64,000 nt of DNA from Planctomycetota bacterium. Its GTDB lineage: Bacteria; Planctomycetota; UBA1135; GCA-002686595. Positions 13,419 through 44,152 of the stretch are shown here, in pieces. Made by a program: the position numbers and the translations under genes. Location: positions 1 through 64,000 of the forward strand of contig CANKOY010000003.1 in the NCBI GenBank assembly GCA_947484275.1. The letters run 5' to 3'. The notes beneath the pieces are model-generated. The model did not search any database. It was given only the letters and a program-made list of their open reading frames with translations, and was not told the DNA's origin. Numbering within the stretch: position 1 is the first letter of the stretch; every line of letters begins with the position of its first letter.

Positions 13419-13554
13419 CTCGGGCCGAATAGGGTCGACTCATGCAGGTAGGCGGCCGAAACTTGCGCGCTGGAGCGAGCCCACCCTACGCTTGGAGTGT
13501 TGCGGGGGGATGGCCGCGCCCGGCACCGATTCCTGTTACCGGATGCTCAACAAC

Positions 13555-15018
13555 ATGAAGACTTTTCTCCTGCCCCTGTTCTCCCTGGTTCTTTGCTCCC
13601 AGGTATTCGCGGGCGACGTCGTGTGGGAGAAGACTCTGGAGGACGCCCTGACCCGTGCCAAGGCCGAGGGCAAGGCGGTGTTCCTCGCAGTCAACATGGA
13701 CGGTGAGCGGGCCAACGACGTGCTCGCGAACAAGACCTACCGCGAGAAGAGCTTTGTCGAACTGACGACGCGCACGATCAACGTGCTGGCCTGCGCCCAG
13801 GAGCACGCCGACCTCGGCAAGCCCTGCCCACGCTTCGACGGATTGGAGTGCATGGATCACCGCCGCGCCGACACGGCCGCGCGCGAGAAAATCCTCAAGG
13901 CAGACACGCAGGGATTCGTGATCGCGCCCCAGCACGTGTGGCTCTCGCCCGAGGGCAAGGTCTTGCTCTCGGTTCCCTACAGCGTGACTTTGGAGGAGCT
14001 GAATTGGTGCATGGTCACCGCGCTCCTGGAGGTCACTCCGGGGGCGCCATTAAAAATGCCCGCGAACGCGCGCGCCCCCCGGCGTCTGGTCACCGGCGAT
14101 GTGTTCGATCCGGCGGGTACGGCCGCGGGGCTTGTCGATCGGCCGCCGACGCGCGCGGAAGCCCTGGAGATCATCAAGCAAATGAAGAAGAGCTGGTTTG
14201 CCCTCGAGAACAATGTCGAAGCGCGCCGGCTCCTGATGTCCGATGAACCGGAAGTGCTCGAATTCGTGCAGCAACAGCTGCGCGGCAGCGTCGGCAGTTT
14301 CCTTGGGGGTGGAGGAGGGGCAGGCGGCGGCGGCGGACGCGGCGGCGGGGGAGGCGGCCGCGGAGCCGGCGGCGGCAACAGTTTCCACGCACAGATCCTG
14401 CACTTGATCGGTGTGGTCTCGCCCCCCGGCTACTGGGAGCTGGCTTGCGAATCCCTGGGCGATGCGGATGTCACCGTGCGCGGCGAGGCCGCGGTGGCTC
14501 TGGAGCAACTGGCGGCGCCCGAGTCCGTGCGCGCGATGACTGTCGCCCTGCTCAAGGAAAGCGACGTGGGCGTCAAGAAGGACATCCTGCGTGCCATTGG
14601 CAGCGCAGGCGCGAATGACGCCAAGGCCCGCGCGGCCCTGATCAAGCGCGCGAAGACAGACAAGGATGAATTGTTGCGCTGGAATTCCATCGCCGCGCTG
14701 GCGTTTGCCACCGCCGACGCCGATGTGGTGGCGTTCCTACAGGCGACGCTCGCCGGCAAGGATCCGCGGGCGAAGACCGCGGCGGCCTGCGCCCTGGGCA
14801 TGTCGCGGGACAAGCAGTTCCTTGCTGCGCTCAAGGCCCAGGTGGTCGAGTTGACGCCTGAGGCCGATTCCCTGGAGAAACAGTCTCAAGCGGCCATCGG
14901 CACGGCAATCGGAGTGTTGGAAGGCGCGCCGTTCCGTGAAATGGAAGCGCCCCTGAAAAAAATCTGCGCGGACACGATCGACCGGGAGCGTTGGTTCCCC
15001 GCGCGCAGGCCCCAGTAA
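13555..15018 (+). CDS. Exported thioredoxin-fold protein with Gly linker and HEAT repeats
   Basis: A protein of 487 aa with a signal peptide (cleavage near VFAG-D). Residues 20-170 resemble a thioredoxin-like domain (GKAVFLAVNMDG, a GFVIAPQHVWLSPEGKVL strand pair) but lack a CxxC redox site at the usual place. A run of about 25 mostly Gly residues (about 250-275) acts as a flexible hinge. The rest is HEAT-like (AVALEQLAAPESVRAMTVAL and similar repeats). The domains suggest periplasmic protein binding rather than redox catalysis. I prefer ATG 13555 for the signal peptide. Upstream, TTGCGC (13463-13468) and TACGCT (13487-13492), 18 nt apart, may form the promoter. The stop codon abuts a 164-bp palindromic repeat. 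Confidence 0.7.
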   Translation: MKTFLLPLFSLVLCSQVFAGDVVWEKTLEDALTRAKAEGKAVFLAVNMDGERANDVLANKTYREKSFVELTTRTINVLACAQEHADLGKPCPRFDGLECMDHRRADTAAREKILKADTQGFVIAPQHVWLSPEGKVLLSVPYSVTLEELNWCMVTALLEVTPGAPLKMPANARAPRRLVTGDVFDPAGTAAGLVDRPPTRAEALEIIKQMKKSWFALENNVEARRLLMSDEPEVLEFVQQQLRGSVGSFLGGGGGAGGGGGRGGGGGGRGAGGGNSFHAQILHLIGVVSPPGYWELACESLGDADVTVRGEAAVALEQLAAPESVRAMTVALLKESDVGVKKDILRAIGSAGANDAKARAALIKRAKTDKDELLRWNSIAALAFATADADVVAFLQATLAGKDPRAKTAAACALGMSRDKQFLAALKAQVVELTPEADSLEKQSQAAIGTAIGVLEGAPFREMEAPLKKICADTIDRERWFPARRPQ

Positions 15019-15181
15019 GAGCACGTCCTGATACCTGGCTGGCCGCTTGGGCGATTCCAGGCCGCCAGCCGCGAGGCGCAGCGACGATGCGTATTCGCCT
15101 GCAATACTCGGAGGAGCTGCAACGTCGCGATGGCGAGCCTGGAATTGGCCTAGCGGCCAGCCAGGTATCAGGACGTGCTCT
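15018..15181. repeat. 164-bp palindromic intergenic element, copy 1
   Basis: Begins and ends with a perfect 30-bp inverted repeat starting AGAGCACGTCCTGATACC. The pairing continues with a few mismatches, so the whole element can fold into one long hairpin. A second copy, inverted and differing at about 6 of 164 positions, lies at 42798-42961. No transposase is encoded. It sits between the convergent HEAT and pyrD genes and directly follows the upstream stop codon, so it may act as a bidirectional terminator. It resembles a non-autonomous mobile element (MITE). Confidence 0.85.
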
Positions 15182-15202
15182 AAGTCGCAGCCGGTCTTGA
15201 CC

Positions 15203-16270
15203 TCAGCGCGACGGGGCGCCGAGGTCAAAGACCGAACTCAGGCCCTCGCGCTCGCAGGTCCGCACCAGTTCCTTCTGGATGGCGCGGATCAAGAACGGTC
15301 CGGAGTAGATCAGGCCCGTGTAGACCTGGATCAAGTGCGCGCCCGCCCGCATGCGGTCGACCGCGTCCTGGGGCGAGAGGATTCCGCCGACCGCGACGAT
15401 CGGCAGGCGGCCGCCCGTGCGCCGCGCCAACTGTCGCGTCAACCCCAACGCGCGCGCGGTCAGCGTCGCGCCGCTGGTGCCTCCGGGGAGTTTCACGGCT
15501 TCCTCAGGCAGCCCGCTGCGATCAGTGGTCGTGTTGGTGGCAATCACACCATCGATGGCGGTGTGCGCGATCGCTTCCAGGACTTCATCCACTTCGTGCT
15601 CGGAGAGATCCGGCGCGATCTTGACCAGGACCGGCACCCGCCGCGGCCGCGCGTCGCGCGTGCGAGCGATGGCTCCGAGCAACGCTTCGAGCGCCGCGCG
15701 ATCCTGGAGCTTTCGAAGGCCCGGGGTGTTGGGGCTGGAGATGTTGACCGCGATGTAATCAGCCCGATCGCCAACGCGCTCGATCAATGCGCAGTAGTCC
15801 TGTGCCGCATCCTCCAAAGGCGTGTCCTTGTTCTTGCCGATGTTGATGCCGATTCGCGTGCGCCCCGGCGAGCCGAAATCCTGGGCCAGCAGCGCGTCAA
15901 CGCCGGCATTCGGAAAACCCATGCTGTTGACCAGCGCGCGCTGGGCCGCAAAGCGCGCAATCCGCGGCCGCTGATTTCCCACTTGGGGCCGCAGCGTGAC
16001 CGTGCCCAATTCCAGGTGACCCAGTCCCAGTGCGCACAGACCCTGGACCGCGCGGCCGTCCTTGTCGTAGCCCGCGGCGATGCCGACGGGATTCTCGAAA
16101 TCCAGGCCGAAGGCTCGCACGCGAAGCATTGGACTGCTGACTCGACTGGCGGCGGCCAGGAGCGCGCGCGTCGGTCCCAGGCGTCCCGCCATGCGCGCAA
16201 GGGCCAAGGCGTGCCCGTGGGCGTCTTCCGGATCGAGTCGGAACAGCAGCGATCGCAGGAGGGGGTACAC
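15203..16270 (-). CDS. pyrD: Dihydroorotate dehydrogenase (quinone), class 2
   Basis: Oxidises dihydroorotate to orotate in pyrimidine synthesis and passes electrons to the quinone pool at the membrane. The product is about 355 aa. The N-terminal helix YPLLRSLLFRLDPEDAHG is the membrane-associating segment that marks class 2. FMN-site motifs include GIAAGYDKDGRAV, NSMGFPNAG and NIGKNKDTP. NISSPNTPGLR contains the catalytic Ser, and IATNTT and GGILSPQDAVDRMRAGA complete the barrel. I chose the GTG at 16270 because it starts exactly at the conserved helix; the longer frame to 16537 runs across the divergent gene. Confidence 0.93.
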   Translation of the reverse strand: MYPLLRSLLFRLDPEDAHGHALALARMAGRLGPTRALLAAASRVSSPMLRVRAFGLDFENPVGIAAGYDKDGRAVQGLCALGLGHLELGTVTLRPQVGNQRPRIARFAAQRALVNSMGFPNAGVDALLAQDFGSPGRTRIGINIGKNKDTPLEDAAQDYCALIERVGDRADYIAVNISSPNTPGLRKLQDRAALEALLGAIARTRDARPRRVPVLVKIAPDLSEHEVDEVLEAIAHTAIDGVIATNTTTDRSGLPEEAVKLPGGTSGATLTARALGLTRQLARRTGGRLPIVAVGGILSPQDAVDRMRAGAHLIQVYTGLIYSGPFLIRAIQKELVRTCEREGLSSVFDLGAPSR

Positions 16271-39991: not shown

Positions 39992-41337
39992 GGGTGCTGT
40001 TCGTTTCGCGGGGTTTCCCGCCCCATGGGCGCTGGGGTACAGAGGCCTACACCTCGCTCTTGGCCAGCGGGCTCGCGCGCGAAGGCCACGAGATCCGCGT
40101 GTTCCATCCAGATGTGCGCGATGACCGTGAACCGTATTCGCTGTACGACGTCGAAGACGGGCCGTTCGTCGTGACGCGCGTAGTCTTGCCGCGCACGCGC
40201 AGCAAGCGCCTGGAGCAGAGCTACTCGGACAGCGCGTTGGAAGCGGCTTTCGAGCGGGCACTGTTGCGCCACCAGCCGGACGTCGTGCACTTCACCTACC
40301 TGCTGTGGACGCTTTCCGTGCGTCTGCCACAGGTGGCCAAGCGCCACGGAGTTGCCTGCGTGCTGACGGCCACGGACTTCGGCCTCGCCTGCCATCGAGG
40401 TCAGTACTTCGACTGGCGCCAGCAGGATTGCGGCGGGCCCCACAGCGCAGAGGTCTGTGCGCGCTGTATCCGCGAACCTTCCCGCGACGACGGCTCGAAA
40501 GTCGAGGTGGCCGCGAAGCGCTGGGCAGCCTTTTTCCTGGCCCAGGTGGGCGGCGCCGGGAAAGTGGTCGTGGGCGCCGATCTCGAACGGCGCGAGCACA
40601 GCGTGCGCGAGGCCATGGCCGCGATCGACGAAGCTGTGGCGCCGACGGAGGAAGTTGCACGCATGCTCGCGCGCGTGGGCGTGGACGAAGAGCGCATCAC
40701 ACGCCTGTGCTATGCAGTAGACGAGTCGATCATGGACGTCGCGCGCGCCGAACCAACTTCCAAGGTGCCGCGCATTGGATTCATGGGGCAGTTCGCGCCA
40801 CACAAGGGCCCGCACGTGCTCCTGGATGCCGTGTCGATCCTCGAGCAACGTCTGCCCGAGTCCGTGGAGCCCTGGGAAGTGGTTCTATACGGCGAGGGGA
40901 TCGAGGGCCGCCATCGCCTGTATCCGCAGCGATTGCGCGCGGCGCCTTTGGGCCCCCGAGTTTCGATCGCCGCGCCCTTCGAGACGCGCGCCGTGGGCGA
41001 GGCGTTTGCCGCGCTCTCATGCATCGTCGTGCCTTCGCTGTGGCGTGAGAACGCGCCACTCTGTGCGCTGGAAGCGCGCGCCGCTGGGATCCCGGTAATC
41101 GCGAGCCGCGTTCCTGGACTGTCGGAAATCATCCAGCCTGGCGTCCACGGCCAGCTGTTCCCGCCCGGGGATGCGCGAGCGCTGGCGGATCTGTTGCGCG
41201 ATGTAATTCTCGGTCGAATCGCGCCACGCCACGCGCCCTCGCAACCAATCACCTACGCTGCGCACGTTTCGCGCGTAGCGCAACTGCACCGGCGGGCTCT
41301 GGCGCGGAGCGCTGGCAAGCACGTTCACGCGTCATGA
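39988..41337 (+). CDS. GT4-family glycosyltransferase with four-Cys motif
   Basis: A GT-B enzyme of 449 aa. The N-terminus is MRVLFVSRGFPPHGRWGTE; the donor half has RIGFMGQFAPHKGPHVLLDA and LWRENAPLCALEARAAGIPV. After the ATDFGLAC segment it carries C135-x12-C148-x8-C157-x2-C160, a likely metal-binding insertion shared by two other transferases here (41334 and 60519). It is translated from an ATG overlapping the pseudo-sulfatase stop and itself overlaps the next GT4 gene, forming a three-gene unit. Acceptor and sugar are unknown; an envelope polysaccharide is likely. Confidence 0.87.
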   Translation: MRVLFVSRGFPPHGRWGTEAYTSLLASGLAREGHEIRVFHPDVRDDREPYSLYDVEDGPFVVTRVVLPRTRSKRLEQSYSDSALEAAFERALLRHQPDVVHFTYLLWTLSVRLPQVAKRHGVACVLTATDFGLACHRGQYFDWRQQDCGGPHSAEVCARCIREPSRDDGSKVEVAAKRWAAFFLAQVGGAGKVVVGADLERREHSVREAMAAIDEAVAPTEEVARMLARVGVDEERITRLCYAVDESIMDVARAEPTSKVPRIGFMGQFAPHKGPHVLLDAVSILEQRLPESVEPWEVVLYGEGIEGRHRLYPQRLRAAPLGPRVSIAAPFETRAVGEAFAALSCIVVPSLWRENAPLCALEARAAGIPVIASRVPGLSEIIQPGVHGQLFPPGDARALADLLRDVILGRIAPRHAPSQPITYAAHVSRVAQLHRRALARSAGKHVHAS

Positions 41338-42791
41338 GCGCGGGCCTTGCATCGATCGGCGAGCGCGCGCGCGACGAAGGCCTCGACATTGGATTCGTCA
41401 GCATGGGCTTCGCTCCCGATCTCGGCGGGATCGAAACGCACTTGCTGCAACTGGCGCAGGAATTCACAGCCCGGGGACACCGCGTACACGTCCTGTGTCT
41501 GGATTCCAGGCGCGGTCGCGCGCCCTATTCATTCGAGGATCAACTCCACGGCCAGGTGCGCGTGCGACGCGTGGCCTACGCCTATCACGATCACCGCGCC
41601 CTGGCCGATCTCGCCGTGCGCGCCGAAGCCAACGACACCGTCATGGCCTGGCTGGCGGAAGAGCCCTGTGACGTCGTTCACGTGCACCACGCCAGCGGGT
41701 TTGGTGCCGGAATGCTGCAGGCCATCCACGAGATGGGCCGGCCCTTGCTTCTGACTCTGCACGACTATTGGATGCTCTGTCCGCGCGGGCAGATGCTCCG
41801 AAACGACGGCGCGGTCTGTGCTTCGGCCCTGGCGCAGACTTGCGCGGCGTGTCTCGCTGCGACCTGGCCGCACCTGATGCCTTCTGAGCGCGGCGAGCAA
41901 CGCGGTCCAGGGGGCGAGGCACTGACCAGCGATGAGCAGGCAGCAGCGGCGCGCACTGCCCACGCACTTTCGATGTTGAACCTGCCCGCGCGTTTGTTCG
42001 CGCCTTCGGCTGCCGCGCGCGACGTGTTCGAGCGCAACGGAGTTCCCGCGGGGCGCATTGCGGTCCTGCCCAATGGAGTCGAAGTCGAGGGGCTCGCCGC
42101 CGCGGTCGCCGCAGCGCGTCGCGCCACGGCGCCCAAGGACGACCGACGGAGGGTGGCTGTGCTTGGCAGCGTCCAACCATCCAAGGGTGTGCTCGAGTTC
42201 GCGCGCGCAGCGCTCTCACTCAACGATTCACGGCTGGTGATCGAAATTCACGGCGCCCTAGGCGACTATCACGGCGATTCCAGCTACGGCATGCGTCTGC
42301 GCGAATTGGCGACGGCCCATCCGCAACTGGAGCTGCATGGCGAATACGCCCACGTTGATTTGGCGCGAATCCTCGCGCGAGTCGATCTTGTGTGCGTGCC
42401 CTCGCGTTGGCATGAGGTCTTTGGTTTGACAGCGCGCGAGGCCCGGGCCGCGGGGCTTCCGGTGTTCGTGTCTGACCGCGGTGGGCTCGCGGACTTGCGC
42501 GCCGATCCCGGCGTGCGTTTGCTCGCTGCGGAGGATGCGACGGCCTGGCGCAACGCCCTCGAACAGTTCATGACCGAGCCCGCGGGCCAACTTGTTCTCG
42601 GTCCGGCCCCCAAGAGCGCCCACGCGCTGGCGCTGGAGCTGGAATCGCACTACGTGGAACTCGTGCGCACGCAACTGGGCCGCGAGCCGCGCCTGCTGTT
42701 TCAGGCGGGGACGGACGTGCCTGTGAGCCGCCTAGAATCCGAGCCGCCGGCGAGTAAGAAAGGACCGTGGTGGCGGCGCATGATTCGCTGA
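41334..42791 (+). CDS. GT4-family glycosyltransferase with four-Cys motif
   Basis: A protein of 485 aa. GT-B signatures are GFAPDLGGIETHLLQLA at the acceptor side and VAVLGSVQPSKGVLEFARA, WHEVFGLTAREARAAGLPVF at the donor side. Following LTLHDYWMLC is C149-x12-C162-x7-C170-x2-C173, the same pattern as in the preceding gene. The C-terminal tail is basic with tryptophans (KKGPWWRRMIR) and may touch the membrane. It is the last gene of its unit and is followed after 6 bp by the second copy of the 164-bp palindromic element. Confidence 0.87.
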   Translation: MSAGLASIGERARDEGLDIGFVSMGFAPDLGGIETHLLQLAQEFTARGHRVHVLCLDSRRGRAPYSFEDQLHGQVRVRRVAYAYHDHRALADLAVRAEANDTVMAWLAEEPCDVVHVHHASGFGAGMLQAIHEMGRPLLLTLHDYWMLCPRGQMLRNDGAVCASALAQTCAACLAATWPHLMPSERGEQRGPGGEALTSDEQAAAARTAHALSMLNLPARLFAPSAAARDVFERNGVPAGRIAVLPNGVEVEGLAAAVAAARRATAPKDDRRRVAVLGSVQPSKGVLEFARAALSLNDSRLVIEIHGALGDYHGDSSYGMRLRELATAHPQLELHGEYAHVDLARILARVDLVCVPSRWHEVFGLTAREARAAGLPVFVSDRGGLADLRADPGVRLLAAEDATAWRNALEQFMTEPAGQLVLGPAPKSAHALALELESHYVELVRTQLGREPRLLFQAGTDVPVSRLESEPPASKKGPWWRRMIR

Positions 42792-42797
42792 TCGCCT

Positions 42798-42961
42798 AGA
42801 GCACGTCCTAATACCTGGCTGGCCGCCAGGCCAATTCCAGGCTCGCCATCGCGACGTTGCAGCTCCTCCGAGTATTGCAGGCGAATACGCGTCGTCGCTG
42901 CGCCTCGCGGCTGGCGGCCTGGAATCGCCCAAGCGGCCAGCCAGGCACTAGGACGTGCTCT
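42798..42961. repeat. 164-bp palindromic intergenic element, copy 2 (inverted)
   Basis: Reverse-complement copy of the element at 15018-15181, same length, with about six differences, most of them near the ends. As with copy 1, it fills the space between two convergent genes (both glycosyltransferases here) and could terminate both. Confidence 0.85.
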
Positions 42962-42973
42962 CAGGTGCGCTGG

Positions 42974-44152
42974 TCAGTGATCAGAGTCACGACCGCTCGC
43001 CCGTCGCCACGTGGCCAGCAGTTTGTCCGACAACACACTCCAGGTGTAGCGCTCCATGGCGAGGGCGCGTCCGCGCCTTGCGCGCGCGCGGGCCTCACTC
43101 GGATCCGCGAGGGCCTCCAAGGTTCGCGCGGCAAATTCTGGGGCGCCGTCGGCGAGCCACAGGTGCTTTGGATCTTCGAAGCCAAGCCCCTCGGCGCCAA
43201 TTCTCGTGCTGACCACCGGCGTTTCGCTGCCCAGGGCTTCGACGATCTTCAGCCGCGTGCCGCCGCCGATGCGCAGGGGCGCGATCAGCAGGGCTGCGCG
43301 CCCGAGTTCGGGTCCGACGGTCTCCACACGGCCGACGACTGAAACACTGCGGCCGGCGAGGGCCTGGACCGCCGCGCTGTTCCCGGAACCCACGATACGC
43401 AGCCGGGTCCCAGGCCGCGCGGCCAGTAGGATCGGCATAACCTCGCGCACGAACCAGGTCAGGCCGTCGATGTTGGGGCCGTAGTCCAAGCTCCCCAGGA
43501 AAATCAAATCGTCACAGGAGCGCCGCGAATCGGTCGGAAGAAAATTCGGCGGATGAAATCCGCTCTCGACCACCGACGTGTGGAGCGCCGGGTAGCGGCC
43601 CTTCAATTCGCGTGCATCCGCTTCGCCGGTCAAGACATGGAATCGATGTCGGCGCGCGGCCTCGCGCTCCAGCCGCTGCAGTTTGAAGCTGTCGAACCTG
43701 CCTGCGATCGTCCGAGCCGACGGCAGGCTGTCGTAGAAGCGCGTGTCGAGCTTGTGATGGTGAACGATCACGGCCGTGGCCAAGTTTCGTCGCAGGGCCC
43801 CGATCATGAACATCTCGTCGAGATGCACCAGGTCATAGCGCTCGCGCGCGAGTTCCTCTCCGATGGAAGCGGCCAGTGCGGGCGAGAAGAACCAGCGCTC
43901 GAGTTTTGCACGCGTCGCCCGGCGCCAGGTTCCCGCCCGTGCGCGCTCGAAGCCTCGCACGGAGGCGCAGTGGGGGGCAAGCTCCGCGATTGCCGCGGCA
44001 GCCGCGGGCGATTCGTGTACGGCGCGCAAGTGCACTTCGGCCCGGCCGTGCAACTCACGCAGCAAGTGGTACGTGCGCACCCGACCGCCGGTGTCGGGCG
44101 GAAAGGGCACGCTGGGCGTGACGAACAGGCACTTCAGGTGCTTGGCGGCCAC
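42974..44152 (-). CDS. GT4-like glycosyltransferase (PEP-CTERM/Stp1-like type)
   Basis: A protein of 392 aa. It begins KCLFVTPSVPFPPDTGGRVR and has DLVHLDEMFMIG, LIFLGSLDYGPNIDGLTWF, RLRIVGSG and LRIGGGTRLKIVEALGSETP, resembling the sugar transferases associated with exopolysaccharide/PEP-CTERM loci. No four-Cys motif is present. The GTG start at 44152 has AAGGGA about 9 nt upstream and lies inside the end of the histidine-phosphatase gene (19-bp overlap), so the two are co-translated. Frame further upstream belongs to that neighbour and is not coding here. Confidence 0.83.
   Translation of the reverse strand: MAAKHLKCLFVTPSVPFPPDTGGRVRTYHLLRELHGRAEVHLRAVHESPAAAAAIAELAPHCASVRGFERARAGTWRRATRAKLERWFFSPALAASIGEELARERYDLVHLDEMFMIGALRRNLATAVIVHHHKLDTRFYDSLPSARTIAGRFDSFKLQRLEREAARRHRFHVLTGEADARELKGRYPALHTSVVESGFHPPNFLPTDSRRSCDDLIFLGSLDYGPNIDGLTWFVREVMPILLAARPGTRLRIVGSGNSAAVQALAGRSVSVVGRVETVGPELGRAALLIAPLRIGGGTRLKIVEALGSETPVVSTRIGAEGLGFEDPKHLWLADGAPEFAARTLEALADPSEARARARRGRALAMERYTWSVLSDKLLATWRRASGRDSDH

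Follow-up and report, generated by a model that had tools for sequence, protein, structure and literature searches.

In the usual view, the ends of a non-autonomous transposon bind it to one transposase and its interior is disposable. Bacterial MITEs of the IS5 and IS630 type are short, have no long open reading frame, share terminal inverted repeats with an insertion sequence, duplicate their target site and lie in many dispersed, mostly intergenic copies, and the palindromes described here are like them in each of these respects. They are unlike them in that each element forms a single hairpin from end to end, with little variation in length (163–172 bp), and in that its core is common to families with the ends of two unrelated transposase types. 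Palindromes have also been described at the 3′ ends of genes in the GTAG/CGTC REPs and REPINs that go with RAYT, again with G-T pairs in their stems; these REPs prefer unidirectional and convergent positions, and their termini supply the stop codon TAG, as set out in the available sections of the report (PMC3733652). Placement at stop codons and gene ends has thus already been reported, on the evidence of those sections. REPs, however, are 20–40 bp long with a one-sided GTAG or CGTC tag, whereas the elements considered here are about 165 bp long with terminal inverted repeats and target duplications, and the type element has 164 bp and symmetrical ends (AGAGCACGTCC). QMITE2 of Coxiella burnetii is a MITE of about 190 bp that makes duplications of 7–9 bp; it resembles our elements in lying mainly in 3′ untranslated regions, in the very stable fold of its transcript and in being itself the target of another insertion sequence, but a core common to several end types, as found here, is not reported for it in the available part of the source (PMC10969869). 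Finally, the accessible portion of the work on IS1272 describes an inverted-repeat-replacing transposition in which palindromes are the landing sites (PMC5678879).

The window, the whole stretch of 64,000 nucleotides of Planctomycetota DNA that was analysed, holds two such palindromes (Table 1). The first-pass annotation had taken them for inverted 164-bp copies with about six differences that fold along their full length, and this was borne out: both measure 164 bp and they are 96.3% identical, with six differences, and the predicted folding energy is −130.4 kcal/mol against −66.5 ± 4.6 for shuffled sequences (z = −13.8, or −12.4 for the minus strand). As first delimited, 15018–15181 comprises copy 1 plus one duplicated base on each side. 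The 30-bp perfect terminal repeats ascribed to both copies hold for copy 1, where the arms extend over 45 nt, but not for copy 2, whose outer 30 bp contain three mismatches. Similarly, copy 1 does directly follow a stop codon, which is its left duplication, whilst the TGA before copy 2 ends 6 bp short of the element. The flanks of copy 2, TGA and TAG, are in other words a decayed duplication. A separate, codon-model gene calling confirmed that each copy is flanked by a convergent gene pair. The gene before copy 1 was compared with 11 homologues; as seven of them stop within 0–11 codons of the aligned end, it is not obviously truncated. Within the window no Rfam family matched at its gathering score. 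Sub-threshold matches to MIR918 were seen on both strands at 14950–15250 (51 and 50 bits, where the gathering score is 268), such as any long hairpin might give.

Table 1. Features of the two palindromes and their surroundings in the window, and sites of a second palindrome elsewhere in the source genome.
Feature	Position	Strand	Remarks
Palindrome copy 1 proper	15019..15180	+	162 bp between TAA duplications
Left target duplication, copy 1	15016..15018	+	TAA; stop codon of upstream gene
Right target duplication, copy 1	15181..15183	+	TAA
Left arm, copy 1	15018..15062	+	outer 18 bases are the IS5-type terminal repeat
Right arm, copy 1	15137..15181	+	93% complementary to left arm
Conserved hairpin core, copy 1	15068..15133	+	covariance-model match, 77.2 bits
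Palindrome copy 2, inverted	42798..42961	-	flanks TGA / TAG no longer match
Conserved hairpin core, copy 2	42846..42911	-	81.3 bits
Upstream gene of copy 1, HEAT-repeat protein	13510..15018	+	ends with the TAA duplication
Convergent gene beyond copy 1, dihydroorotate dehydrogenase family	15203..16270	-	
Upstream gene of copy 2, family 4 glycosyltransferase	41334..42791	+	
Convergent gene beyond copy 2, glycosyltransferase	42974..44152	-	
Sites hit by second palindrome of about 200 bp, source genome	L043 2022-2547 (twice), L038 2072-2422, L040 2057-2395		

The source genome, a Planctomycetota MAG of 3.67 Mb in 101 contigs (88% complete), contains many more copies. A search with copy 1 returned 74 matching pieces, each palindrome being counted on both strands, and the fetched stretches held 32 places with the copy-1 end type, fragments and nested copies included; this amounts to about 30 further copies beyond the two of the window. 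The core model gave at least 43 matches at E ≤ 0.001 when 150 of 5914 candidates were scored. Four contigs of this genome (G000) end inside element copies (C34:1, C56:1, C82 and C74), so the true copy number is probably higher; the repeats break its assembly. Equal TWA trinucleotides flank 17 of the 28 tabulated places, and equal CTWAG sequences 14 of the 28 (nine CTAAG, five CTTAG), in either orientation of the core. The first-pass suggestion of a mobile palindrome is thereby upheld by the many dispersed copies, the matched ends, the target duplication and the existence of autonomous elements with the same ends. Dispersal, duplication of TWA within CTWAG and ends matching those of an IS5-family element together identify a non-autonomous mobile element. 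The copies are themselves targets: a second palindromic element, about 200 bp long with ends near CCGTTGAAAAAGTCC, lies at CTAG-like sites inside three of the 164-bp copies. Two core-bearing palindromes (L153 and L260) have ends, CTAGCAGGCCGT, that are similar to those of this second palindrome. In Planctomycetes bacterium Pla86, a relative whose genome is complete, two loci (L053 and L055) have a palindrome nested in the CTAG of a sister's core, with the CTAG duplicated, and so carry a built-in empty site.

The autonomous element sharing the outer end AGAGCACGTCCTAAtACC is an IS5-family element of 871 bp in the related genome G027 (L202, 1087–1957), with DUF4096 (E = 1.5e-28) and DDE_Tnp_1 (E = 6.5e-14) domains and the ends AGAGCCCGTCCTAAAACC and AGAGCACGTCCCAAAACC. 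The end of the source-genome palindrome agrees with both at 16 of 18 positions, the next best places in L202 reaching 13, and G027's own palindrome agrees with the IS5 end at 17 of 18. The transposase of this element lies in two frames, and its flanks, TAA and TTA, are unequal. A second homologue, with ends GAGCCGGTCCCAAAACC, was found in G039; these two genomes gave the only matches to P0001, a query for the autonomous partner, among 154 genomes, the source genome giving none. Where palindromes end in CTAGTG, their ends resemble those of IS630-family elements in Pla86, G027 and G001 to varying degree: the Pla86 palindrome matches the G027 IS630 end at 21 of 24 positions, and the palindrome L137 matches the left IS630 end of Pla86 at 21 of 24, whilst some IS630-type ends match known IS630 ends poorly (L116, 8–13 of 24). 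Terminal repeats shared with an insertion sequence (16–17 of 18 for IS5, up to 21 of 24 for IS630) and target-site duplication, as expected of MITEs, are therefore both present, with the partner in related genera rather than in the source genome, whose assembly (88% complete) has no IS5- or IS630-type transposase (PF01609, PF13358). Leftover internal sequence of a parent insertion sequence, by contrast, was not found when three palindromes were compared with four insertion sequences by blastn; matches were supported only at the outer 19–24 bp, the rest having E values of 0.087 or worse. There is thus no sign of an internal-deletion derivative.

Six of the seven IS630 copies in Pla86 abut a palindrome and share its CTAG (L182, L185–L189). 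They do so on either side of the palindrome and whichever way its core is oriented, as though palindrome ends were targets of the IS630 element. This recalls the use of palindromes by IS1272 in the part of that work available (PMC5678879), although in Pla86 the palindrome is retained and its CTAG duplicated, and no hairpin replacement of the kind that source describes was seen.

Where the copies lie relative to genes was examined with our own codon-model gene caller, which assigned 89% of 816 kb of fetched contigs as coding. Seventeen of the source-genome copies are convergent, eight tandem and two divergent, with five at contig edges left out, against 8 convergent, 25 tandem, 6 divergent and 3 edge positions for free non-genic CTWAG sites. 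The claim that the element lies between converging genes is thus correct as a bias (17/27 copies against 8/39 free sites, Fisher p = 0.0007) and incorrect as a rule, given the tandem and divergent copies. The same bias was seen in Pla86, where 18 of 41 copies are convergent against 20 of 93 free CTAG sites (p = 0.012). Copies inside genes had been named by the first-pass annotation as evidence against its reading; no source-genome copy overlaps a called gene, and the 48 copies in the fetched Pla86 loci divide into 18 convergent, 17 tandem, 6 divergent, 5 edge and 2 gene-overlapping. A surviving stop codon holds 16 of the 32 source-genome copies, four of these resting on weakly scored genes (scores 10–24), against 6 of 42 free non-genic CTWAG sites (p = 0.0017), and 20 of 46 Pla86 copies against 23 of 105 CTAG sites (p = 0.010). 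CTWAG and CTAG each supply a TAA or TAG on either strand. Because the duplicated TWA together with the first base of the element, G (or the CTAG|TG junction), keeps TAA or TAG in place, an insertion at a stop codon would do almost no harm. CTWAG is itself rare in the 816 kb, with 107 unoccupied sites, 65 of them in genes, against roughly 870 expected from a base-composition estimate. Only 32 of 636 called genes end in TAA, which is nonetheless frequent at the element.

These positions bear on the proposal that the palindrome has been co-opted as a bidirectional terminator. Should the host keep such hairpins, as domesticated terminators or insulators, to stop read-through from two sides between convergent genes, one would expect the very stable fold on both strands and a convergent bias beyond target availability, the latter seen in two genera with two different targets. 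However, a scan of copy 1 (14800–15400) found no terminator-like site, that is a stem followed by a T-run, on either strand; ten copies are tandem or divergent; and resident copies gather changes everywhere, the core mutating almost as fast as the arms, with some copies broken by other insertions. Nor does a two-way terminator need a conserved core or the excess of G-U pairs on one strand described below. A target that contains stop codons, together with the loss of harmful insertions, also explains the location. The proposal is therefore not supported; a terminator function is unlikely, and domestication by the host for that purpose improbable.

The core itself, about 65 nt at element positions ~51–116, matches other multi-copy palindromes with different ends in related genera. 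Between IS5-type and IS630-type palindromes it is 84% identical (119 pairs, a second, odd palindrome in L077 being left out), whilst the two arms are 29% and 34% identical, against 27% for shuffled arms. A pattern scan of genome contigs and fetched stretches found at least 74 core elements with both ends recognised, 163–172 bp long, and the end types among those measured include CTAGTGTCCTGG, CTAGTGTCCCGT, CTAGTGTTCC, CTAGTGGGGTGA, CTWAGAGCACGTCC and CTWAGGGYCCGTCC; at least 38 further core matches have no recognised end pair, many probably because of the end filter. The core occurs with at least four end types in the source genome: that of copy 1, CTAGTGTCCTGTACC (L255), CTWAGGGCTCGCGCAAGAATAAG and CTAGTGGGCTGTAACG. 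The three CTWAGGGCTCGCGCAAGAATAAG-ended elements that were read are all convergent. With the core model R1, matches were obtained in 40 of 154 genomes of the order (E ≤ 1e-4) and in 33 of 392 genomes sampled over the phylum (E ≤ 1e-6). Of 22 phylum-distant loci inspected, 11 are palindromes of 160–171 bp, again with other ends, and the remainder are truncated at the end of a contig, are of smaller or greater length, or have undelimited ends. Similar repeats are known from other phyla. With the queries used, no match was found in viral contigs by pattern scans or in plasmids and phages by blastn, and the literature searched, which took in few subscription papers, gave no description of the core family.

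Several alignments point to a conserved fold in the core. In a MAFFT alignment of 25 cores that was not fitted to structure (A1), 97.7% of pair cells are standard and 19 cells are changed on both sides, against 5.6 in shuffles. The cores contain two tandem G-A / A-G steps (CGACGACG facing CGGAGGAG), which are identical in 24–25 of the 25; from their sequence these would form sheared pairs. Two structural alignments, both fitted to the model, show compensation at 12 of 14 pairs (A3, 73 distinct rows) and 13 of 14 pairs (A4, 65 rows, in which other families of the phylum are represented). The double-change cells in A4 number 137 against 23 after shuffling, with none of 500 shuffles as high, and its covariation is 0.461 against 0.128 for shuffled and at most 0.056 for slid versions. 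In the apical stems the sequence has been wholly replaced and the pairing kept, for example GTATT/AATAC and GACTC/GAGTC. It might be argued that the core is shared only through recombination or conversion among elements combined with horizontal spread, and is itself functionless. Elements are indeed found nested within one another, and a single genome holds four end types; but identity stops at the core boundaries, where the arms become unrelated, and the compensatory changes point to selection on the fold, so that we regard this explanation as highly improbable.

The kinds of mismatch bear on which strand folds. G-U exceeds A-C in the core (46:9 in A3 and 38:4 in A4, both alignments favouring standard pairs). 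In the arms of 44 elements, compared in a plain-identity alignment that treats both mismatches alike, there are 140 G-U against 51 A-C, and 31 elements lean to G-U, 7 to A-C and 6 are tied (sign p = 1e-4); these elements were hand-selected, mostly one per end type and genome, with many distant matches of undelimited ends omitted, and their shared ancestry makes the p-values optimistic. The 22 source-genome copies alone have about equal numbers, 58 G-U and 53 A-C, and a first count with one element per end type gave 45 of each, including a fixed C-A position beside the core. The excess of G-U over A-C in the arms suggests selection on one strand for folding in single-stranded form, and we read this as the + strand, which has GGAGGAG in its 3′ half, probably folding as RNA or ssDNA. 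The + strand of the core shows no bias relative to gene orientation (3 sense and 4 antisense among tandem source-genome copies; 5 and 12 in Pla86), which is odd for a read-through RNA, and none relative to replication in Pla86 (13 + and 11 − per half). Selection of one strand as a fold would also suit an ssDNA element moved by an HUH tyrosine transposase, RAYT- or TIRYT-like, that reads the folded core, the IS-like ends being coincidental or target signals; the available sections of the REP report (PMC3733652) describe TIRYTs, which are tyrosine transposases lying between terminal inverted repeats. The TWA and CTAG duplications and the identity of the ends to DDE elements fit cut-and-paste transposases instead, and with no replication-strand bias in Pla86 this mode of movement is very unlikely.

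Once inserted, the core seems to be only weakly protected: relative to the consensus, resident copies are changed at 3.1% of core positions, 4.0% of arm positions and 6.3% of the outer 16 nt. If the core were a functional RNA of use to the host, a protein-binding or processed hairpin with the transposon ends as a mere vehicle, its presence throughout the phylum, strong covariation, invariant non-canonical G-A pairs and G-U excess would all be accounted for. We nevertheless find this doubtful, as presence is sporadic (33 of 392 genomes), resident copies decay near-uniformly and there is no bias in orientation relative to genes. A core that is weakly protected once inserted and yet kept over the phylum is most simply read as the product of selection on the copies that spread.

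In conclusion, we consider it reasonably probable that the palindrome is a non-autonomous mobile element that is moved in trans, tolerated at stop codons and retains its core as a folded strand needed for spread. In this scheme, transposases of the IS5 and IS630 families would each move palindromes in trans by recognising the outer ends only, the ends of sister palindromes with the same core matching IS630-family elements that target CTAG. Insertion into a stop codon would be nearly harmless, TAA or TAG being left intact, and, with insertions in genes, operons and promoters being lost, the copies that remain would be those at 3′ ends and between convergent genes. The core of about 65 nt would act as a folded single strand, probably RNA, retained since the spread of the family depends on it, whilst the arms could change freely as long as they stay complementary, so that an element might switch transposase. 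It is possible, and we suggest it tentatively, that the core constitutes a mobile family of structured RNA (or folded ssDNA) that outlives any one transposon: a tandem G-A hairpin whose arms and ends are swapped between IS5-type and IS630-type transposases, with stop codons as harmless landing sites. A non-autonomous element with a conserved interior and exchangeable ends would reverse the usual picture, and would open to direct test the idea that a bacterial miniature element owes its success to a folded module of RNA or ssDNA. The stop-preserving target would be a case of two unrelated end types arriving at the same safe niche. The family may also be of use as a marker for Planctomycetota, where such repeats break metagenome assemblies.
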